DNA from: an uncultured Gemmiger sp.
GTDB lineage: Bacteria > Bacillota > Clostridia > Oscillospirales > Ruminococcaceae
Reading direction: 5' to 3'
Assembly: GCA_934502625.1 (NCBI GenBank)
Contig: CAKSUQ010000007.1
Location: 27,338-91,337, forward strand
DNA length: 64,000 bases
This document shows, piece by piece, positions 4,609 to 14,845 of the stretch (positions within the stretch are counted from its first letter, which is position 1; each line of letters begins with the position of its first letter). The position numbers and the translations under genes are program-made. The notes beneath the pieces were generated by a model that saw only the letters and a list, made by a program, of their open reading frames with translations, ran no database searches and was not told where the DNA came from.

Positions 4609-5463
4609 ATGTGGTTATTGTATGCGGTTGGCTCGGCGCTTTTCGCCGGTCTGACCTCGATTTTAGCCAAGTGCGGCATCCGCAAGACGGACTCCACCGT
4701 GGCTACGGCCATCCGCACGATCGTGGTACTGATCTTCGCGTGGATCATGGTGTACGTCGTCGGCTCGCAGGGCACGCTCGGCAGTATCCCGGCGAAGAGT
4801 CTGGTCTTCCTCGTGCTGTCCGGCCTTGCCACGGGTGCCAGCTGGCTGTGCTATTTTTACGCGCTGCAGCGCGGCCCCATCGATAAGATTGTGCCCATCG
4901 ACAAAAGCAGCACCGTCATGACGATTCTGCTGGCGGCGATCCTGCTGGGCGAGGGTATCACCCTGACGAAGGGGATCGGCGTTGTGTTTATCGCAGTCGG
5001 TACATTTTTGATGATCGAGAAAAAGGGCGGCGTCCAGAACGAGGAAAGCGGCTGGATGCTCGCGGCGTTCGGCTCGGCAATCTTCGCCGCGCTGACCTCT
5101 ATCTTGGGCAAGGTCGGCATCACCGAGGTCGAGTCCAACCTCGGCACGGCGCTGCGCACCGGCGTGGTGCTCATCATGGCATGGGGCATGGTCTTCGTGC
5201 AGGGCAAACAGGCACAGGTCAAGGCCGTGCCGAAAAACGAGCTGGGCTTCATCTGCCTGTCCGGCCTTGCCACGGGTGCCAGCTGGCTGTGCTACTATAA
5301 GGCATTGCAGCTCGGCCCCGCCAGTCTTGTCGCGCCCATCGACAAGCTGAGCATCCTCGTCACGGTGCTGTTCTCTTACCTTGTCTTCCATGAAAAACTC
5401 AGCAAAAAGGCGCTGGGTGGTCTCGCCGTCCTCGTCGCCGGTACGCTGGTCATGCTGCTGTGA
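4609..5463 (+). CDS. EamA-family (DMT superfamily) membrane transporter
   Basis: An integral membrane protein of 284 residues with about ten hydrophobic segments and a clear internal duplication. The phrase LATGASWLCY occurs in both halves (near residues 76 and 222), each followed by a similar P-I-D-K segment. This is the two-EamA-repeat architecture of the drug/metabolite transporter superfamily, whose members export or import amino acids, nucleotide sugars or other small metabolites. The substrate cannot be read from sequence. A purine-rich ribosome-binding site precedes the ATG at 4609, and a strong terminator follows at 5491, so the gene is probably the last of its unit. Confidence 0.9.
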   Translation: MWLLYAVGSALFAGLTSILAKCGIRKTDSTVATAIRTIVVLIFAWIMVYVVGSQGTLGSIPAKSLVFLVLSGLATGASWLCYFYALQRGPIDKIVPIDKSSTVMTILLAAILLGEGITLTKGIGVVFIAVGTFLMIEKKGGVQNEESGWMLAAFGSAIFAALTSILGKVGITEVESNLGTALRTGVVLIMAWGMVFVQGKQAQVKAVPKNELGFICLSGLATGASWLCYYKALQLGPASLVAPIDKLSILVTVLFSYLVFHEKLSKKALGGLAVLVAGTLVMLL

Positions 5464-5490
5464 TTTTGCAGAACCGCGCAAAACCTTGTC

Positions 5491-5530
5491 AAAAGCAACA
5501 CCTTCTCTTGCAAAGGATGTTGCTTTTTTG
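5491..5530 (+). terminator. Rho-independent terminator after the EamA transporter
   Basis: The stem AAAAGCAACA-CCTT (5491-5504) pairs with AAGG-A-TGTTGCTTTT (5513-5527) with one bulged base, and runs into a T tract. Confidence 0.85.
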
Positions 5531-5548
5531 GTGAAATTTTGTCATAAT
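5520..5548 (+). promoter_or_regulatory. Possible promoter of the LytTR/histidine kinase pair
   Basis: TTGCTT (5520-5525) and CATAAT (5543-5548) are 17 bases apart, 37 bases before the regulator's start codon. The -35 box overlaps the 3' arm of the preceding terminator, which makes the assignment tentative. Confidence 0.4.
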
Positions 5549-5584
5549 ATTCTTAGGTTTCAAACAGAAAGGGGGCACTGCCGG

Positions 5585-6292
5585 ATGGCGAAAATCGCTG
5601 TCGTCGAGGATAACGATGCTGTGCGCGCGGAGCTGTGCGGCTTTATCGCACAGTACGCGCAGGAGAGCGGCAGCCAGTTGGACGTGACGCCCTTCTCGGA
5701 CGGTGCACAGGTCGTCGAGCCCTACCGCCCCGGCTTTGACATCATCTTTCTGGATATCGAGATGCCGACCCTCGGCGGCATGCCCACGGCGGAACGCATC
5801 CGTCTGCTTGACCCCGACGTTGTGCTGATCTTCGTCACGAATATGGCGCAGTACGCCGTCCGTGGGTACGAGGTCGACGCGCTGGACTTCGTACTGAAGC
5901 CGGTCAACTACTACCAGTTCAGCACAAAGCTGGCGCGGGCGCTGCAGCGCATCCAACGGCGGCGCGGCGGCCAGATCACGCTGCAAACACCGGGCGGCGC
6001 ACAGCAGCTGGACACCGACGATATTCTCTACTTGGAGACCCGCGACCGCCTGCTGCACTACCACACCGCCGACAAAGTCTGGTCGGTGCGGGGCAGTTTG
6101 CTGAAATCGGAAAAAGAGCTTGCACCCTACCATTTTGCCCGCTGCAACCAGTGCTACCTCGTCAACCTGCGCCACGTCAAGGGCGTGCAGGACGACCTTG
6201 TGCAGGTGGGGGAGGAACGGCTGGAAATCAGCCGCCGCCAGCGCGCCGCATTCCTTGCGGCGGTGGCGTCCTACGTCGGGGGTGCGCTGTAA
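5585..6292 (+). CDS. LytTR-family response regulator
   Basis: A 235-residue two-component response regulator. The N-terminal receiver domain has the acidic pair near residues 8-9 (VVEDND), the phospho-acceptor Asp57 (IIFLDIEMP) and the conserved lysine of VLKPV. The C-terminal half (about 135-235) is a LytTR DNA-binding domain, recognised by ILYLETRDRLLHYHT and FARCNQCYLVNLRHV. Proteins of this AgrA/LytR type control bacteriocin, virulence or cell-surface genes. ATG 5585 follows AAAGGGGGC. The histidine kinase gene starts on the base after the stop codon, so the two are translationally coupled. Its target genes are not identifiable here. Confidence 0.95.
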   Translation: MAKIAVVEDNDAVRAELCGFIAQYAQESGSQLDVTPFSDGAQVVEPYRPGFDIIFLDIEMPTLGGMPTAERIRLLDPDVVLIFVTNMAQYAVRGYEVDALDFVLKPVNYYQFSTKLARALQRIQRRRGGQITLQTPGGAQQLDTDDILYLETRDRLLHYHTADKVWSVRGSLLKSEKELAPYHFARCNQCYLVNLRHVKGVQDDLVQVGEERLEISRRQRAAFLAAVASYVGGAL

Positions 6293-7576
6293 GTGGAGCA
6301 TTTTTTGTCCCTGCTCGTCTGGGCGGCGGGCGTCTGCGGCACCGAGCTTGCCTATTGGCTGCCGTTGAAAAGACGTGAGAAATTTTCCATGCATACGATC
6401 CTCAATTTTATTGCGGCAGTGCCATTTGCACAAGTCATTGTTTGGGCAAACAGCGGTCATGCAGAACAGGCAATGTTACTGATGATTTATGCAGGATATT
6501 TTATCTGGGCGACCGTCTCAACACGTCTCTGCACCCCGTTGGATTGGCCGGGCAGTGCATACTGCAGCGTTTGGATTGTGCTGACGGCGGAGTCAATCTA
6601 TGAATTGTGGCGAGTTTTGATTTGGACAGCACAGGCGCTTGGGATGCGCGATCTGCCGTTACACAGTACACAGATGCTGTTAGGACAGTTAGGCTTTACC
6701 ATTATCTGCTGTATTATTATTCGGTATACGGTGGCGCGCACTATGCCGGAGGACGGCATCTATCGCATCGGCCCACGCCAATTGAGCAGTGCGGGGCTGC
6801 TGGGTGTAATGTTTGTCTTTCAGTTTTTTGCACTGCAAACCAGCCTGCGCGTTGGGCTGCATCCCACAGCAGTGGTTGTGCCGTCGCTGTTGACCCAGCT
6901 GTACTGCCTGACGCTTTTGTATCTGCAGACCGAACTTTTCAAAAAGTCCGCCATGCAAAAGGAGATGGACGCGCTGAACCTTCTGTACGACCGCCAGCGC
7001 CAGCAGTACCAGATCGCGCGGCAGAACGTGCAGATCATCAACCGCAAATGCCATGATTTAAAGGTGCAGATCGCCGATCTGCGCCGCTTGCAGCCCGATG
7101 CCGAGATGAGCCGCAGTCTGGACGAGGCCGAACAGGCCGCCCGGATGTACGACGCCAACGCCGCCACCGGCAACGAGGTGCTGGACGTCGTCCTGACCGA
7201 GAAGAGCCTGCTGTGCGAGGCACAGGACATCCGCCTGAACTGCGTGGCAGACGGCAGCTGTCTTGCCTTCATCGAGCCGGGTGATTTGTACGCACTGTTC
7301 GCGAACCTGCTCGATCAGGCCATCGACGCCGCCGTGCAGAAGCGCGAGCCGGAGCGCCGGATGATCGACCTGCTGGTCTGCCGCAGGCAGGGCTTTGCGG
7401 TCGTCAACATCATTGCGCCCGCCGTGGCCGACCCCCACGCCGAGCATGGCCGCCGCCACGGCTACGAGCTGAAAATGGCACGCCGCGTCGTGCAGAAATA
7501 CAGCGGCACCATGGCGACCGAACCCCGCGGCGAGCTTTTCGCCGTCAAAATTGTCCTGCCCCCCGCGAAGACGTAA
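6293..7576 (+). CDS. AgrC-like sensor histidine kinase with a divergent ATP-binding site
   Basis: A membrane sensor kinase of 427 residues that begins with GTG directly after the response regulator. The first 210 residues hold about six membrane segments. A coiled-coil linker leads to an H-box (CHDLK, His254), and a GHKL ATPase domain occupies the C-terminus. The N-box reads NLLDQAIDA, so the usual Asn is Gln (residue 342). I find no clear DxG motif, and the G2 box is HGYELK rather than HGIGLK. ATP binding may therefore be weakened. The stretch 6370-6800 is visibly poorer in G+C than the flanking DNA. Partner: the LytTR regulator at 5585. Confidence 0.9.
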   Translation: MEHFLSLLVWAAGVCGTELAYWLPLKRREKFSMHTILNFIAAVPFAQVIVWANSGHAEQAMLLMIYAGYFIWATVSTRLCTPLDWPGSAYCSVWIVLTAESIYELWRVLIWTAQALGMRDLPLHSTQMLLGQLGFTIICCIIIRYTVARTMPEDGIYRIGPRQLSSAGLLGVMFVFQFFALQTSLRVGLHPTAVVVPSLLTQLYCLTLLYLQTELFKKSAMQKEMDALNLLYDRQRQQYQIARQNVQIINRKCHDLKVQIADLRRLQPDAEMSRSLDEAEQAARMYDANAATGNEVLDVVLTEKSLLCEAQDIRLNCVADGSCLAFIEPGDLYALFANLLDQAIDAAVQKREPERRMIDLLVCRRQGFAVVNIIAPAVADPHAEHGRRHGYELKMARRVVQKYSGTMATEPRGELFAVKIVLPPAKT

Positions 7577-9600: not shown

Positions 9601-10959
9601 TCACAGATCCGGGAAGACGTTCCGCGCACTGATGAGGGCGTTGTTATAATACATCTCAAAATGGCAGTGATTGCCCGTGGCAAAGCCCGTTGCGCCCACA
9701 TAGCCGATCAGCTGCCCCTTCGTCACGGTCTGCCCGGCCTGCACGACGAAGGACGACATATGCGCGTACAGCGTCTTGTACCCGTTGCCGTGGTCGATCT
9801 CGACGTAATAGCCCCAGCTGGCCGTGGGGTGGTTGTGCCACTGGGCGGCAATGACCGTGCCCGCGTCGGCGGCGTAGATCGGCGTGCCGTAGTGCGCGGT
9901 GATGTCCACACCGCGGTGCCCGCCCGGCAGGCTTGCCCACCGGCTGATGCCCGTGTAGTCCGGCACCGGCCAAATAAAACTGCCGCTGCCGAGCTTGCCG
10001 ATCATGCTGCTTTTGATCCGTGTGCCCCGGCGCACGATCTCCGGCGTGGCCGCCTGCACAAGCTGCACGTCGACGGCGCGGCGGCTGATGACCGCGCCGT
10101 CCACCGTGACGACCTCGCTCGTGACCTGCTCGGTGCCGTTCTGGCCGGTCTGCACGGTCTCGGTTTTGCCGAAATCAAGGCCGTCGTCCTCGACGGTCTG
10201 TGTTTCGAAGGGAATCTCCCGCGCTGAGGTCTCGTACCGAATGACCTCGACCTGCAAAAGCCCGTCCTCCTGCCGCAGCGCATCGGTCAGCGCGTTGTAG
10301 GGCGTTACGGCAGCGGTGGGGTAGACGCCATCCACCAGCCGCAGGTCATGGACGAAGGTTGTCCGCGCGCCGTTGGCCTGCCACGGCTCGCGCACGGCGT
10401 ACAGAAAGCGGCGCAGGTGGTCGCCCGCGTCCGTGATGTACCGTAGTGCGCCGTCGATGTAGACCGCCGTGCCCTCGGTGATTTCGCTGCCGGAGGCGCG
10501 CAGGATGGCGTCGGCCATCTCGCGCTCGGTCAGGAATGTGCCGCCGTCCGCCATGACGAGGGTGTACTCCGGCTGGACGTCCCAATCCGAAACCCCTTGC
10601 AGCCGCGCCTGCACGTCGCTGCGGGCGGCGGTAAAGACCTGCTCGCTGGCGACGCAGCCGACGGCCTGCCCGTTCACCTCGACCCGCAGCACGAACGGCC
10701 GCGCCAGCACTGCGCGGACATACACCGCCAGCGCCCCGGCGGCCAGCAGAGGCAGCAGCCAGCCAACAAGAAGCCGCGGATGGTGCAGTGCCTCCCGCAA
10801 GTCGCCCACCGCCCGCACGGCAGGGCGCAGCAGAACGACCGGCAGCCGCACCAGTGACCGGGCAAGCTCCCGCAGCCAGAACGCAGCCCCGCGCCACAGC
10901 CGCACGGCGGTGTATTCGATTTGAAAACCGATAGAATATAACAAATCACCAAAGGTCAA
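9601..10959 (-). CDS. Membrane-anchored M23 peptidase with G5 domain
   Basis: A probable cell-wall endopeptidase of 452 residues. One membrane segment at about 61-84 anchors an extracellular part: a middle region of unclear fold, a G5 domain (about 240-312) and a C-terminal M23 (LytM-type) zinc peptidase domain. The metal and catalytic residues are intact: His348 and Asp352 (HRGVD), His400 (YAHMS), and His431/His433 (NHCHFE). I chose the TTG at 10959 because GAGG stands 8 bases before it. The longer frame to an ATG at 11016 runs through a dispersed repeat with no ribosome-binding site. It is the last gene of the blaI-M56/M23-M23-M23 operon. Confidence 0.88.
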   Translation of the reverse strand: MTFGDLLYSIGFQIEYTAVRLWRGAAFWLRELARSLVRLPVVLLRPAVRAVGDLREALHHPRLLVGWLLPLLAAGALAVYVRAVLARPFVLRVEVNGQAVGCVASEQVFTAARSDVQARLQGVSDWDVQPEYTLVMADGGTFLTEREMADAILRASGSEITEGTAVYIDGALRYITDAGDHLRRFLYAVREPWQANGARTTFVHDLRLVDGVYPTAAVTPYNALTDALRQEDGLLQVEVIRYETSAREIPFETQTVEDDGLDFGKTETVQTGQNGTEQVTSEVVTVDGAVISRRAVDVQLVQAATPEIVRRGTRIKSSMIGKLGSGSFIWPVPDYTGISRWASLPGGHRGVDITAHYGTPIYAADAGTVIAAQWHNHPTASWGYYVEIDHGNGYKTLYAHMSSFVVQAGQTVTKGQLIGYVGATGFATGNHCHFEMYYNNALISARNVFPDL

Positions 10960-10990
10960 AACAATATCCTCGTTTTTGCTGCAAACGGAT

Positions 10991-11045
10991 GCCCGCCATA
11001 CATAGCATGGCGGCACGGCTGTAGGGGCGACATCCTCGACGCCCC
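10991..11045. repeat. Double palindrome, TAGGGGCG family
   Basis: Two adjacent hairpins: GCCCGCCAT/ATGGCGGC at about 10991-11014 and GGGGCG/CGCCCC at 11024-11045. The TAGGGGCG start matches the elements at 14870-14922 and 16561-16613. It sits in the gap between two M23 genes of one operon. Confidence 0.6.
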
Positions 11046-11046
11046 A

Positions 11047-12276
11047 TTACTGCGTCGGCACATATCCCAAGGGGTCAGCCCTCGCCCCATCCAGGCGCAA
11101 TTCCAAATGCAGGTGATACCCGCCGCCTGCGCCGTAGACATTGCCGGTGTTGCCCACGTACCCAATCACATCGCCCCGGCGCACGGTATCACCCTGCGCC
11201 ACGGTCAGGCGGCTCATGTGGGCATACAGGCTGTCATAGCGGTGGCCGTCGTCGGCTGTGCCGTGGCTGATCTGCACACAGTTGCCGTAGCTGTTCATCG
11301 TGCGTGCCGCGCTGACGACGCCGTCCGCAATGGCATAAATGGGCGTGCCGCCCGGCGCAGCAAAGTCTGTGCCCCGGTGGGGGATGCCCCAGGGGTCAGC
11401 CTCGCCAAATTGCGTTGTGATGCGTCCATAGCTGTCCAGCGGGCAGCGAAAATCCAAGCTCGTCAGCCGCAGGTCGGCGGTCGTGTAGCGCTGGCTCTGT
11501 GCCCGCACATAGGCGTCCAGAGCGGCGGTGGCATCCTCGTAGGCCTGTTTGGCGGCATCGGTCACAGCGGCCTGCGCCAGAGCGGCAGCCTGCTGCTGGG
11601 TCAGTGCATCGTTTGCGGCCAGCAGGGCGTTTTCCAGCTGTGCCTGTGTGGTTTGCAGGGCGGCTTGTTGGGCATCCAGCGCCGCTTTCGCGTTGGCAGC
11701 CTGCTGCGCGGAAAATTCTGCTACAGCGCGGGCATCGTTCAGGGCGGCGGTTTCGGCATCCAGCTCGGCCAGTACAGCGCTGTTTTTGGCGCTCATCTGC
11801 TGCAGCACGGCATCAAACGTCAAAAGCTGATACAGGCTTTTCGCCTGCGTCAGCATCCAGACTGCCCCGCCGCCGTCCAACCGCTGCATGGCGCGCAGCT
11901 GCTCCTTGCAAAGGGCAAGCCGGGCGTCGTACTCGGCCTGCTTGGTGTCCAGCGCCGCCCGCGCGGCTTCGGCTGCGGTCTGGCGGGTATCCAGCTCGGT
12001 CTGGGCGGCCTGCATGGCGGCGGTAACGTCGGCGATTTGTCCGGCCAGCCTTGCCGCCTGCACGGTCAGGGCGGCAACCTCGCCTTCGGTCTGTGCCAGC
12101 TCGTTTTGCAGGGTGTTCAGCGTGTTCTGCGCATTTTCGTAGGCCTGACGTGTCTCGACTTGATTTTGCGTTAATTCGCTTCTTTGGTCATCCGCGCAAG
12201 CGGCTGTCCCCGAAAAAAGGGTACAAAAAAACAGCCCCGCCGCCAAAACAGCGGCGGGGAAGTGCCTGTATTTCAT
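11047..12276 (-). CDS. Secreted M23 peptidase with N-terminal coiled coil (EnvC-like)
   Basis: A 409-residue exported protein. A signal peptide (MKYRHFPAAVLAAG... with cleavage near ACA-DD at 28-29) is followed by a long Gln/Ala-rich coiled coil (about 30-260). A C-terminal M23 domain has His300 and Asp304 (HRGTD), His353 (YAHMS), and His388/His390 (YHLHLEL), all intact. This is the layout of EnvC and of PcsB-like wall hydrolases or their regulators. The start lies 5 bases after the M56/M23 gene stop, so translation is coupled. A role in opening peptidoglycan cross-links is inferred from family. Confidence 0.9.
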   Translation of the reverse strand: MKYRHFPAAVLAAGLFFCTLFSGTAACADDQRSELTQNQVETRQAYENAQNTLNTLQNELAQTEGEVAALTVQAARLAGQIADVTAAMQAAQTELDTRQTAAEAARAALDTKQAEYDARLALCKEQLRAMQRLDGGGAVWMLTQAKSLYQLLTFDAVLQQMSAKNSAVLAELDAETAALNDARAVAEFSAQQAANAKAALDAQQAALQTTQAQLENALLAANDALTQQQAAALAQAAVTDAAKQAYEDATAALDAYVRAQSQRYTTADLRLTSLDFRCPLDSYGRITTQFGEADPWGIPHRGTDFAAPGGTPIYAIADGVVSAARTMNSYGNCVQISHGTADDGHRYDSLYAHMSRLTVAQGDTVRRGDVIGYVGNTGNVYGAGGGYHLHLELRLDGARADPLGYVPTQ

Positions 12277-12280
12277 GGTG

Positions 12281-14389
12281 TTACTCCGTCAACAGTGCCG
12301 TGCCGGTCAAATCGACGGGCGCGCCGTTCAGCCGCAGCTCAAAGTGCAGGTGTGGCCCCGTGGCGCTGCCGGTACTGCCCACCGTGCCGATGGCCTGTCC
12401 CATCGTGACGGTGTCACCCGCGCTCACCAGCAGCTCGCGCATATGGCGGTACTCACTTTCCAGCCCGTCGCCGTGGTCGAGGACGATGTACCAGCCCTTG
12501 TCGGCGTCGTAGTCGGCGGCAATCACGATGCCGTCGTACAGGGCGCTGACCTGCGCGCCCGCGTCGGCGGCAATGTCCACGCCGGGATGGTCGGCGCTGT
12601 AGCCGGTGCTGATGCCGGTGGCGTTCAGGACGAGGGTGCTGGCGGGCGGGTACTCCCGCAGGGCGGCGCTCATCGCAGCGGCAGCGCGGTCGATGGCGGC
12701 GTTGGCCTCGGCGTCAGCCTGCGCCGTCTCGCTTTGCAGCAAGGCAAGCTGGTTGTCGATGGCGTCCAGCTGCGCTTGTAACAGCGCGCGGGTGTCGTCG
12801 TCCATGTTGAACATCATCCGCGCTTCCAGCTCGTCGCGCTGGCTTTGCAGGTCGTCGAGGACGGCCGTGTCGTCCATCGGGACGGAATCGGCGGCAGCGG
12901 CCTTGACAGCTGCATCGAGTATCTCGTCGGCCTTTTCCTGCGTCAGCTCGGCGGCGTCCCCGTCGTGGTAGGCGGTGAAATAGCGCGGTGGGACGAGTTG
13001 GCCGTTCAGCTGAATTTCAAAGTGGCACTGGTTGCCGGTGGTGTTGCCCGTCGCGCCGACATAGCCGATCAACTGCCCGGCGACGACCCGCTGCCCCGGC
13101 TGGACGATGCTGGATTTCATGTGGGCGTACAGCGTGACCCAACGCAGACCGTCCGCGTCGGTGCCGTGGTCGATCTCGACAAAATTGCCCCAGCTGTAAT
13201 GCTCCTGCGCGGCCAGCACAACACCGTCCGCGGCGGCGTAAATCTCGGTGCCCTCGGCAGCGCACAGGTCGTCGCCCCGGTGGCTGACATATGCGGATGC
13301 GTCCTCGGTCATGAAGCGGGAAATGTATTTGTAGTCCACCGGGCAGACAAAGCGCGGGCTGCTCGCGGCGTCGCGCAGCGTCGGCAGTGCGGCGGCGGGC
13401 ACGGCCGCGGGGGTCTCGGTTGGGGCGGGTGTTGCCTCGGCGGTTTCGGCGGTGGCCGGGGTCGAGGGCGCATCCTCCACGCGCGGGCGCACCATGCAGG
13501 CCGTCATGGCGGTGGCTACCAGCGCGGCGCAGAGTACCAGCGCCCCCGCGCCAAGGCGGCGGTAGTGCAGCAGATGCACGATGCGCGTCTTCACGCTGCC
13601 CTGCCCGAAGGCCAGACTGCCCGGCACGCCGCGCCCCTGCATCGCAAAATGCAGCAGGCTCTCGCAGTAGGCGTTGCGCTCCGGCAGGGGACGCCCACGC
13701 ACGGCAACCTCGTCGCAGGCGGCCTCCATGTCGCGCTCAAACTCGCGGAAGGCCAGCCACGCCAGCGGGTCGAACCAGTGCAGGCAGGCGACGGCGTAAA
13801 ACAGCGGCTTCATCAGCGGGTCGCGGCGGTGGATGTGGGTCTGCTCGTGGAGAAGAACGGCCTGCCGCGCCGTGCCCTGCAAGTTGTCGGGCAGGTAGAT
13901 GCGCGGGCGCAGGATGCCCAGCGTGAACGGCGCGGTCACACACGCGCCGCCGTAACAGCCATCCGGCGTTTTGCAGGCCAGCGCCACACTGCGCTTCAGC
14001 CGCAGATACCCGACGATGCCGCGCACCGCCAGCACGGCCACGCCAACCGCCCAGACGGCGGCCAGTGCGTGCCATACGGTTAGCCGGGCGTACCACGGCA
14101 GCGGCGCGGCGGCAATCGGCGCGGCGGGCGCAGGGGAGAGCAGCGGCAGCTCGCCCAGCTCCTGCACGGTGTCGGCGGCGGTGGCGAGCTGTTCATTCTG
14201 CGGGCGGGGCAGCCGCAGCGGGATGCCCCATGGCAGCATGAACCGCAGTCCCACGGCCAGCCACAGCCAGCACAAAAACCGGCTGGGCGCATGGGCGCGG
14301 CGCAGCAGCTTGCAGACGCACCATGCGGCCAGCGTGGCCGCCGCGCCGCGTGCGCTGAGCAGCAAAAAGGCGAGTACGATACTGCGCAT
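12281..14389 (-). CDS. BlaR1-type M56 peptidase fused to two M23 domains
   Basis: A 702-residue membrane protein. Residues 1-300 form the M56 peptidase unit of BlaR1/MecR1, with membrane segments near 1-28, 38-58, 103-128 and 280-299, the zinc motif HEQTH at 181-185 and the acidic ACDE motif near 224-227. BlaR1 carries a penicillin-binding sensor outside the last segment. Here there are instead an Ala/Thr/Pro linker, an M23 domain (about 345-470), a coiled coil (about 485-575) and a second M23 domain (about 580-690). In the first M23 the catalytic His of HxH is Gln (NQCHF, Gln454), though His370, Asp374, His423 and His456 remain. The second is intact (His601, Asp605, His649, His680, His682). 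It starts 2 bases after blaI ends. Confidence 0.92.
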   Translation of the reverse strand: MRSIVLAFLLLSARGAAATLAAWCVCKLLRRAHAPSRFLCWLWLAVGLRFMLPWGIPLRLPRPQNEQLATAADTVQELGELPLLSPAPAAPIAAAPLPWYARLTVWHALAAVWAVGVAVLAVRGIVGYLRLKRSVALACKTPDGCYGGACVTAPFTLGILRPRIYLPDNLQGTARQAVLLHEQTHIHRRDPLMKPLFYAVACLHWFDPLAWLAFREFERDMEAACDEVAVRGRPLPERNAYCESLLHFAMQGRGVPGSLAFGQGSVKTRIVHLLHYRRLGAGALVLCAALVATAMTACMVRPRVEDAPSTPATAETAEATPAPTETPAAVPAAALPTLRDAASSPRFVCPVDYKYISRFMTEDASAYVSHRGDDLCAAEGTEIYAAADGVVLAAQEHYSWGNFVEIDHGTDADGLRWVTLYAHMKSSIVQPGQRVVAGQLIGYVGATGNTTGNQCHFEIQLNGQLVPPRYFTAYHDGDAAELTQEKADEILDAAVKAAAADSVPMDDTAVLDDLQSQRDELEARMMFNMDDDTRALLQAQLDAIDNQLALLQSETAQADAEANAAIDRAAAAMSAALREYPPASTLVLNATGISTGYSADHPGVDIAADAGAQVSALYDGIVIAADYDADKGWYIVLDHGDGLESEYRHMRELLVSAGDTVTMGQAIGTVGSTGSATGPHLHFELRLNGAPVDLTGTALLTE

Positions 14390-14391
14390 AA

Positions 14392-14769
14392 CTATTCCTC
14401 CTCACGGTGGGCGGCGTCGAGCAGCGTGCGGATCTCGGCGGCCTCGGCGTCGCTGATGGGCTTCGAGTTCAAAAACGCTGCCACGAAGCGCGGCAGGCTG
14501 CCGCCGAAGGTTTTGTCCACCACGGCGGCGCTCTCGGCCTGCTGGACGTCTTCCTTTTTAATAAGGCTCGTCACGTGGCCGTCGGCATTTTTCAGGATGC
14601 CGCGCTCGCAGAGCTTTTTCAGCACGGTGTAGGTCGTGCTTTTCTTCCAGCCCAGCGCGTCGGCGGCCAGCGCCACCAGCTGCCCGCTGGGCAGCGGTTC
14701 ATTGTCCCACACAAGGCAGGCAAAGCGATATTCGCCATCGGCAAGGCGGGGCGGTTCATGGTTTGACAT
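14392..14769 (-). CDS. BlaI/MecI/CopY-family repressor
   Basis: A 125-residue winged-helix repressor. The diagnostic recognition helix reads WKKSTTYTVLKKLCERG, and a C-terminal dimerisation helix follows. In the BlaR1-BlaI paradigm the partner M56 peptidase triggers cleavage of the repressor and so derepression of the operon. The gene immediately precedes the M56/M23 gene (2-base gap). An AGAAGGAG site precedes the ATG. Dyad sites overlap its promoter at 14790-14831, consistent with autoregulation. Confidence 0.93.
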   Translation of the reverse strand: MSNHEPPRLADGEYRFACLVWDNEPLPSGQLVALAADALGWKKSTTYTVLKKLCERGILKNADGHVTSLIKKEDVQQAESAAVVDKTFGGSLPRFVAAFLNSKPISDAEAAEIRTLLDAAHREEE

Positions 14770-14789
14770 AGGGCGTTCTCCTTCTGGTT

Positions 14790-14831
14790 TATTGCAATAG
14801 ACCTCTTCCTACCTGTAGTCTATCACAGTAG
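14790..14831. promoter_or_regulatory. Operator-like dyads of the BlaI operon
   Basis: Three related palindromes occur: TATTGCAATA (14790-14799), CTACCTGTAG (14809-14818) and CTATCACAGTAG (14820-14831). The second and third cover the -10 box of the blaI promoter; the first lies between the promoter and the start codon. Spacing and position fit BlaI repression, but the motif is read by eye. Confidence 0.6.
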
Positions 14832-14845
14832 ACCAAAAATGTCAA
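14817..14845 (-). promoter_or_regulatory. Promoter of the blaI-M56/M23-M23-M23 operon
   Basis: On the minus strand TTGACA (14840-14845) is followed after 17 bases by TAGACT (14817-14822). No other convincing promoter lies within the four-gene run to 9601. Confidence 0.75.

Follow-up and report, generated by a model that had tools for sequence, protein, structure and literature searches.

The locus

The window, that is, the whole stretch of 64,000 nucleotides analysed here, comes from Gemmiger, a gut genus, and carries on its minus strand four genes in the order blaI, M56-M23-M23, M23b and G5-M23, with one promoter ahead of all four. The blaI gene (14392-14769) encodes a winged-helix repressor of the BlaI/MecI type with 125 aa (PF03965, 63.6 bits in Pfam), and the second gene (12281-14389) encodes a membrane peptidase of 702 aa with an M56 match (PF05569, 134.1 bits) and two stretches of M23 (PF01551). 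M23b (11047-12276, 409 aa, PF01551 with 101.2 bits) has a signal-like N-terminus with a hydrophobic stretch at residues 6-28, a part that by eye looks long and helical, and a complete M23 domain with the motif HLH. The G5-M23 gene (9601-11016, 471 aa as listed) has a hydrophobic segment at residues 80-105, which probably spans the membrane, a G5 domain (67.0 bits) and a complete M23 domain (108.4 bits) with the motif HCH. For this gene, a TTG near 10959 with GAGG ahead of it is likely a better start than the listed one.

The gaps between the four genes are, in order, 2 nt, 4 nt and 30 nt, the last one becoming about 87 nt with the later G5-M23 start. The sequence-only reading had claimed that these genes form one operon headed by a BlaI/M56 pair; the open reading frames, the Pfam matches, the short gaps and the single promoter bear out the operon, and the PF03965 and PF05569 scores bear out the pair. 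The four-gene arrangement in the window is real.

The promoter-like site, TTGACA-17-TAGACT, is located at 14817-14845 (minus strand), and its arrangement recurs upstream of many related blaI genes. In this promoter and just behind it there are two 16-bp dyads with the pattern GTCTA-N6-TARAC, both on the minus strand. The first one, O1 (GTCTACTGTGATAGAC, 14818-14833), overlaps the -10 region, and the second one, O2 (GTCTATTGCAATAAAC, 14787-14802), lies 31 bp downstream of O1, which is about three helical turns. These dyads, the G5 domain, the QCH motif of the first M23 domain and a hairpin at the start of M23b were absent from the earlier reading.

Operators and operator-linked genes in relatives

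Allowing up to two mismatches, the 16-bp pattern matched the window at two positions, each of them at this promoter (3 matches over both strands against 0.06 expected from shuffles), and besides the two dyads at blaI no further operator was found in the 64,000 nt. The exact double operator was present in 29 of the 396 genomes of the family, against 0/396 for the reversed-pattern control, and the next gene was blaI at 27 of the sites and M23b at the other 2. Within the nearest genus, 15 of 35 genomes had an exact double site, before blaI in 6, before M23b in 8 and before G5-M23 in 1. For one of the eight with the site before M23b (G398), the search for M56-M23 found no match at 1e-55. Degenerate sites, such as that of G278, escape the exact double pattern, whose absence elsewhere therefore says little. 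At least one dyad preceded blaI in 23 of the 24 genus genomes with an M56-M23 gene, the contig of the 24th (G404) ending there, so that it has no sequence upstream of blaI. In three genomes (G400, G322 and G411) the blaI frame begins too early as listed, and the dyad is present upstream.

The gene order recurs in several related genomes, and is thus conserved beyond this strain, a point on which the sequence-only reading had made its proposal depend. Relatives show breaks in the operon at two different gene borders, with the operator present at the hydrolase genes that have become detached. Regarding G5-M23, all 12 system-type genes examined in relatives are under the operator, 9 with their own site, 2 behind an M23b with the site and 1 inside a blaI operon; three of these twelve (G224, G278 and G405) were first noticed via operator searches and the other nine via protein search. 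Among the housekeeping G5-M23 paralogues the count was 0/22, the upstream sequence being scannable for 19 of them.

The operator-linked genes that we found beyond the blaI operons were M23b and G5-M23, and Pfam gave no beta-lactamase or PBP among the four operon genes. The operators of the relocated genes agree with the earlier suggestion that the output consists of wall hydrolases, and the M23b and G5-M23 hydrolases are very probably the regulon of this BlaI, the predicted link between operator and BlaI being drawn from position and conservation. The same operator layout is also common to BlaI/M56 pairs whose sensors are not M23, so the motif marks the BlaI type and not the M23 sensor.

We also scanned three Gemmiger genomes for a single dyad. 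Without mismatches there were two blaI sites in each genome plus one site in G002 (C49:98691), which we took for chance, and with one mismatch there were scattered sites, fewer in all than for the reversed control (15 vs 70 in G001). When the promoter was added to the pattern, the blaI site was the only one in these genomes with no mismatch, and the rest, including paralogous M56 loci, had three mismatches. Another zero-mismatch site (G193, C19:10747) was rejected, with no gene of the BlaI/M56-M23 system nearby.

The repressor and the M56 protease

In a PDB sequence search the repressor matched BlaI (1sd4) and MecI (1okr). A CopY-type copper repressor, which belongs to this repressor superfamily too, was considered and rejected, as TIGR02698 reached 28.5 bits against a cut-off of 121.95 and there was no copper transporter match among the four operon genes. 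The A98-F99 bond of BlaI aligns with N101-F102, the cut site of BlaR1 in S. aureus BlaI. According to work on that system, BlaR1 directly cuts BlaI at N101-F102 and itself at S283-F284, and in vitro BlaR1 alone suffices for the cleavage of BlaI (PMC9834060).

The M56 gluzincin part of the membrane protein (residues 1-300; 13490-14389, minus strand) contains H181, E182 and H185, E222, D226 and R269, as well as the loop phenylalanine F261, and the HEQTH site that had been pointed out before is indeed present at residues 181-185. When we compared 104 BlaI/M56 pairs, the six M56 catalytic residues were conserved in 103, the remaining row being a gap. A phenylalanine was found at the cleavage position in 94 of the 104 BlaI proteins, and in the self-cleavage loop (F261 here) in 89 of the 104 M56 proteins. 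The conserved protease residues and the cleavage-site phenylalanines support a proteolysis of the BlaR1 type.

In the M56 protein, Pfam gave matches above its cut-offs for M56 and M23 only and none for a penicillin-binding domain; as the earlier reading had it, M23 domains stand in the place of the penicillin-binding sensor. The M56 part alone weakly matched BlaR1 (8exs/8exp, E 0.05) in the PDB sequence search, and the PDB chains listed in the alignment-profile search of M56-M23-M23 were of M23 type, with BlaR1 not among them. Foldseek with the whole model, whose pTM of 0.42 makes the relative placement of its domains unreliable, gave M23-fold proteins among the matches listed (the best 50 of 159), including the LytM domains of EnvC and DipM, and did not confirm the M56 fold.

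Two unequal M23 domains

M23 domain 1 (residues 346-471; 12977-13354, minus strand) keeps the zinc ligands H370, D374 and H456, and also H423, but its HxH motif reads QCH, with Q454 instead of the water-activating histidine. The model confidence of this domain was 87-95 per ten-residue block, except for 61 in the block 361-370. M23 domain 2 (residues 571-700; 12290-12679, minus strand) has all five active-site residues (H601, D605, H649, H680 and H682). The complete HxxxD, second histidine and HxH are present in domain 2, M23b and G5-M23, so that these three are by their motifs predicted to be active M23 endopeptidases; domain 1 does not, and one of the fused wall-cutting folds is probably inactive. 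The earlier description of two fused M23 domains can be refined accordingly: the two differ, domain 1 being without the catalytic histidine and domain 2 being complete.

Among 277 two-domain relatives, many of which are near-copies, domain 1 was without the water-activating histidine but with its zinc ligands in 217 and intact in 57, domain 2 had all five residues in 262, and both domains were intact in 48. As a control, we took 57 M23 domains outside M56 proteins and set aside 4 incomplete ones, and 52 of the remaining 53 had all five residues. In the relatives with a single domain, 11 of 15 proteins had an intact M23 domain, and so did 8 of the 11 representatives from the genus. We can thus rule out that domain 1 is always dead, also because G424 and G422 have an intact domain 1 and a crippled domain 2; with domain 1 intact in 57 of the 277, and most of the single-domain relatives also having an intact domain, a loss of catalysis is common and not universal. 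Five relatives (G399, G400, G421, L086 and L090) have one lone M23 domain which is crippled, and therefore no complete hydrolase is left on their M56 protein.

Of 37 two-domain representatives, 33 had exactly one crippled M23 domain and a further one had two; the 37 are the 39 two-domain representatives minus G410, whose gene is cut at the locus end, and P0148, whose domain 1 is partly unaligned. This association is uncorrected for kinship, and its Fisher p of 0.0006, which counted the partly aligned domain of P0148 as intact, is given no weight here. On a tree of 53 representatives, which omits P0148 and G421b and has four rows added, the state of domain 1 changes at least 7 times on well-supported branches and 11 times at fewest overall. 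The repeated loss of the catalytic histidine from the first fused M23 domain, with the zinc ligands kept, is a new observation.

A proposed switch and its alternatives

To our knowledge, few worked examples exist of how bacteria gauge the amount of wall cutting that they need, and the question is open. From the operon, the operators, the operator-linked genes, the crippled domain and the conserved protease and cleavage residues, all obtained by sequence comparison, we infer how repression and proteolysis would work in this organism, and we consider it probable that the whole is a derepression switch of the BlaR1/BlaI type turned to wall turnover. BlaI would sit on O1, over the -10 region, and on O2, repressing its own operon, and in relatives it would also repress the detached M23b and G5-M23 genes. 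A wall-related signal would act on the M23 module that the M56 protein carries outside, the likely receptor being the first M23 domain, catalytically crippled and zinc-binding. This signal would activate the cytoplasmic M56 gluzincin, which would cleave BlaI at A98-F99 and its own chain at A260-F261; upon the loss of BlaI, M23b and G5-M23 would be made. Judging from the domain type and the regulon, the inducer may be a peptidoglycan state or fragment, as had been supposed.

The sensor of BlaR1 is similar to a class-D beta-lactamase in which the release step is very slow, and by analogy M23 domain 1 may be a non-cutting receptor. A more specific version, to which we give slightly less than an even chance, is that the membrane-proximal M23 domain is a former endopeptidase turned receptor, which would hold its old substrate (a cross-link or its cleavage product) uncut at the intact zinc site and prompt M56 to free the genes for active enzymes that share this fold. 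If this is true, the cell would measure the very substrate on which the newly induced enzymes then act.

The signal might instead be cytoplasmic. A peptidoglycan dipeptide of the gamma-D-Glu-mDAP type, coming from wall recycling, would release BlaI, M56 would make a coactivator or clear BlaI, and the M23 domains would not be the receptor. Such a dipeptide is reported to bind BlaI of B. licheniformis and MecI of S. aureus at the C-terminal domain and to detach the repressor from its operator, with a weak affinity of about 2-8 mM (PMC3305447), and wall fragments would fit as a signal, the output genes being wall hydrolases. Nevertheless, this mechanism needs neither an M23 module at the place of the BlaR1 sensor nor zinc ligands that outlast a repeated loss of catalysis, and the in vitro cleavage of BlaI by BlaR1 alone (PMC9834060) does not favour it either, which makes it rather unlikely.

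The fused M23 domains could also simply serve as wall hydrolases tethered to the membrane and belong to the output, with M56 triggered otherwise, by the membrane state or an interacting protein. That domain 2 is complete in 262 of the 277 relatives, that both domains are intact in 48 and that the lone domain is intact in 11 of 15 would agree with such a role, but against it, 33 of the 37 representatives have exactly one crippled domain, a further one has two, and the five relatives named above have a single, crippled domain; we regard this explanation as unlikely too.

A disguised ordinary beta-lactam sensor, with beta-lactams as inducer, is very improbable: proteins of the BlaI and M56 families do have a known part in beta-lactam sensing, but here the M56 protein has no penicillin-binding domain, the four genes include no beta-lactamase or PBP, and the operator marks hydrolase genes. 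Beta-lactams may induce the system indirectly, by damaging the wall, and this would agree with the wall-turnover switch. Finally, a chance neighbourhood of unrelated genes, for which we found no point in favour, is hardly credible, as the order is conserved in several genomes and the operators are kept at two different break points.

Relation to known systems

Like BlaR1/BlaI and MecR1/MecI of S. aureus and B. licheniformis, this system has a BlaI-type repressor, an adjacent M56 gluzincin and predicted operators at the blaI promoter, with a phenylalanine in P1' at the presumed repressor and self-cleavage sites. However, M23 domains occupy the place where BlaR1 and MecR1 have a C-terminal penicillin-binding sensor, and the operator-linked genes are M23 hydrolases instead of a beta-lactamase or PBP2a. 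The staphylococcal BlaI operator has TACA/TGTA boxes, unlike the GTCTA-N6-TARAC pattern found here. By this comparison, the penicillin-sensing BlaR1 may belong to a broader modular family in which the outer domain is exchanged, and a penicillin-detecting switch appears to have been rebuilt here to control the cell's own wall-cutting enzymes.

A dedicated regulation of wall endopeptidase genes upon wall hydrolysis is also described for WalRK of B. subtilis, although WalRK is a two-component kinase and response regulator which senses the cleavage products of D,L-endopeptidases (PMC7299342). Catalytically incomplete M23 folds with a regulatory role are described in EnvC, NlpD and DipM; these degenerate LytM proteins are without catalytic residues and/or zinc, and EnvC and NlpD switch on amidases through protein contacts (PMC9662197). 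Unlike in EnvC and NlpD, the M23 fold here is fused to a signalling protease and its zinc ligands are kept. NCBI has a family named 'M23/M56 family metallopeptidase'. A survey lists the pair of M56 and M23 among the M23 architectures with a second catalytic domain, which together make up less than 1% of the M23 hits, and says that a role of M56 in peptidoglycan cleavage is not shown, and the survey passages on M56-M23 give it no operon, regulon or function (PMC9662197). Going by abstract openings among the matches listed, we found no description in the open-access papers searched of an operon design combining blaI, M56-M23-M23 and M23 hydrolases. The operon is a compact and genetically self-contained candidate for a gauge of wall cutting, with defined operators, operator-linked genes and a candidate receptor domain, and it is directly testable.

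A hairpin at the start of M23b

A terminator-like hairpin with a T run is located within the 5' end of M23b (12235-12259, minus strand). A hairpin-like element was found in 10 of 14 in-operon M23b genes, versus 2 of 9 stand-alone ones, and this hairpin is possibly an attenuator between the sensor and the output genes.

Operon and operator

The four minus-strand genes which the sequence-only reading had placed here are real, and open reading frames and Pfam matches confirmed their order and coordinates. These are blaI, coding for BlaI (14392-14769); 2 nt after it, the M56-M23-M23 gene (12281-14389), whose 702-aa product joins two M23 domains to an M56 part; 4 nt further on, M23b (11047-12276), coding for an M23 protein of 409 aa that has a signal-like N-terminus and a long helical region; and, 30 nt after M23b, the G5-M23 gene (9601-11016), whose product has a single hydrophobic segment besides its G5 and M23 domains. 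If a later start of the G5-M23 gene is correct, this last gap is around 87 nt instead of 30 nt. The source is probably a Gemmiger-like bacterium, since the closest named loci come from Gemmiger formicilis, and the protein cluster P0001 (95% identical) has 72 member sequences in public data.

A promoter-like TTGACA-17-TAGACT ends 47 bp upstream of the blaI start. A 16-bp dyad, O1 (GTCTACTGTGATAGAC), overlies its -10 region, and a second dyad, O2 (GTCTATTGCAATAAAC), lies 31 bp downstream of O1. Allowing up to two mismatches, the operator pattern matched just these two places within the 64 kb, where shuffles expect 0.06 matches. Many BlaI/M56 operons of the family have TTGACA, GGTCTA-N6-TAGACT, a second dyad and then the blaI start codon, although this layout was not seen in all the loci compared, e.g. 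not in L009, L036, L064, L091 and L092.

Operator-linked genes in relatives

The strongest new evidence is the set of genes linked to the operator in relatives. The exact double site, that is both dyads together, occurred in 29 of 396 family genomes and the reversed control pattern in none of the 396. We read the gene following every one of the 29 sites: it was blaI in 27 cases (17-62 bp from the first matched blaI residue in 26, 284 bp in one) and M23b in two, in both of which the G5-M23 gene came next. In the nearest genus, searched with the pattern written slightly differently, 15 of 35 genomes carried a double site, which preceded blaI in six (G001, G002, G003, G410, G418, G424), M23b followed by G5-M23 in eight (G224, G322, G398, G400, G401, G404, G416, G417) and G5-M23 alone in one (G405), with no other position. 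The M56-M23 gene was present in 24 of the 35 genomes (E 1e-55 or better), among them seven of the eight with a site at M23b; it was not found at this threshold in G398. At least one dyad lay upstream of blaI in 23 of these 24, the remaining one being G404, whose contig ends before blaI.

All four genes stand together in the window, G001, G002 and G418. The break lies behind the M56 gene in G224 and its relatives, and behind M23b in G278, G405 and others; the operator was found at the detached pieces that we read. G003 keeps the order blaI-M56-M23b and lacks the G5-M23 gene there, its best genomic match being a housekeeping copy. In two loci, L279 (G414) and L276 (G399), the M56 gene is in tandem duplicate behind a single blaI, and the second copy in G399 is short and has no recognised M23 domain. 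At L173:1095-2292 a 236-aa M23 gene is divergent from a blaI-M56 operon, with a double operator between them; the M56 protein was seen partly.

All 12 system-type G5-M23 genes examined in relatives were under the operator. Eight had a dyad close upstream; in G411 it falls within an over-long reading frame, in G399 and G224 it precedes the adjoining M23b, and in G418 the gene is part of the blaI operon. Three of the 12 (G224, G278, G405) had been first spotted via operator searches, and the other nine, which came from a protein search, were also all under it. The comparison group was 22 housekeeping paralogues of G5-M23, drawn from the same genome set and near kin; none had a dyad, and three of them offered no upstream sequence to scan. 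For background, all the loci collected were divided into tiles of 390 nt: 131 of 3990, true sites counted, hold a dyad with at least 11 of 12 matches. Taken as a whole, the evidence makes it very probable that the operon is a regulon in which BlaI controls wall hydrolases. In L088 and L089 the blaI-M56-M23 pair has a housekeeping G5-M23 gene one gene downstream, which carries no dyad of its own.

A probable proteolytic switch

In 103 of the 104 BlaI/M56 pairs read from fetched loci the M56 catalytic residues H, E, H, E, D and R are conserved (181, 182, 185, 222, 226 and 269 in the window's protein); the remaining row is a gap. According to PMC9834060, S. aureus BlaR1 cleaves BlaI at Asn101-Phe102 and itself at Ser283-Phe284. 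Ala98-Phe99 of the window's BlaI aligns with the former; for the latter, Ala260-Phe261 is found in the M56 loop that joins the equivalent helices. Of the 104 pairs, 94 have this Phe in BlaI and 89 have it in the M56 loop; the exceptions include distant loci as well as some divergent M56-M23 relatives inside the family (L077 and L080 in both BlaI and loop, L059 and L063 in the loop). Because the M56 residues and the cleavage-place Phe are conserved, proteolysis is likely in this switch.

Fused M23 domains as a possible receptor

The two M23 domains of the M56 protein had been treated jointly in the sequence-only reading; both are present, but they are not equivalent. The review PMC9662197 describes the first histidine of the M23 HxH motif as no zinc ligand but a proposed water activator. 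In the first domain of the window's protein Gln454 stands at this place, and the site retains its second histidine and every zinc ligand, whereas the second domain, like M23b and the G5-M23 protein, has complete active-site residues. Among 277 two-domain proteins, the window's counted, domain 1 has lost the water-activating residue and kept the zinc ligands in 217, is intact in 57 and is incomplete or changed otherwise in three; domain 2 has all five residues in 262. As a control, 57 M23 domains outside M56 proteins were taken from the fetched loci, and all five residues were present in 52 of the 53 left after removing four incomplete ones.

Clustering at 85% identity gave 39 two-domain representatives, of which 37 were counted after a truncated gene and a representative with an incompletely aligned domain had been set aside. 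Domain 1 alone is crippled in 29 of them, domain 2 alone in four, neither in three and both in one. A tree of 53 representatives was made from the protein part preceding the M23 domains; on it, domain 1 requires at least seven changes of state on well-supported branches and 11 at fewest overall. Judging from these sequences, catalysis in domain 1 has changed repeatedly while the zinc site was retained, as expected of a binder and not of a cutter. However, the M23 domain of single-domain relatives is mostly intact (11 of 15 proteins, 8 of 11 genus representatives), which runs counter to a binding role.

An AlphaFold model from 46 sequences had a mean pLDDT of 75.5 and a pTM of 0.42; its domain arrangement is not confident. 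Domain 1 is confident (87-95 per ten-residue block) except for residues 361-370 (61), the site of the first zinc ligand. Among the best 50 of 159 Foldseek matches are M23-fold proteins, including EnvC and DipM with their LytM domains. Domain 1 can be likened to the BlaR1 sensor, since the review PMC7593790 describes the latter as class-D beta-lactamase-like with slow release. That the crippled M23 domain acts as the receptor is a good and testable inference.

The main rival is that the signal is a gamma-D-Glu-mDAP-type wall fragment acting on BlaI itself. In its favour, gamma-D-Glu-mDAP has been reported to bind BlaI and MecI, loosening them from DNA (PMC3305447), and the idea of wall fragments signalling to BlaI is thus already known.

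Known systems

In its presumed way of working the system is like BlaR1/BlaI, but it lacks two features that define that family: a penicillin-binding sensor and beta-lactam-resistance targets. The closest known logic is that of WalRK, in which hydrolysis products are sensed and hydrolase levels set (PMC7299342). In the accessible part of PMC9662197 the M56-M23 fusion is named as a rare arrangement of domains, with no function given there. No description of this operon design was apparent among the matches listed in our literature searches, nor in the available portions of PMC9662197, PMC7593790 and PMC8348566.

Hairpin, possible insulation and neighbouring features

A terminator-like hairpin with a T run lies at 12235-12259 on the minus strand, inside the very start of the M23b coding sequence. 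Of 14 M23b genes behind an M56 gene, 10 have a comparable element at roughly this position, versus two of nine with their own operator. It may be an attenuator of the output genes or a by-product of signal-peptide codons.

Paralogous M56 genes in three Gemmiger genomes (L143, L144, L145) have promoter dyads of the type TTCTACA-NN-TGTAGAA instead, exact in L143 and L144 and closely matched in L145. In L143 and L144 the M56 gene comes first and then its blaI. This suggests that BlaI systems within one cell would be insulated by their operators.

The outer regions of M56 proteins are apparently a modular sensor platform. Eight M56 proteins (L065, L066, L069, L070, L079, L082, L011, L013) have an outer region with no Pfam family above the cut-off, and several blaI genes of these loci have a similar operator layout.

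Palindromes starting GTAGGGGCG are repeated between genes at 11021, 14896 and 16563 of the window, one of them between M23b and G5-M23 and another before the blaI promoter. On the plus strand, at 5381-7576, a LytTR response regulator is followed by a GHKL-type histidine kinase, a make-up resembling that of a peptide quorum-sensing pair.
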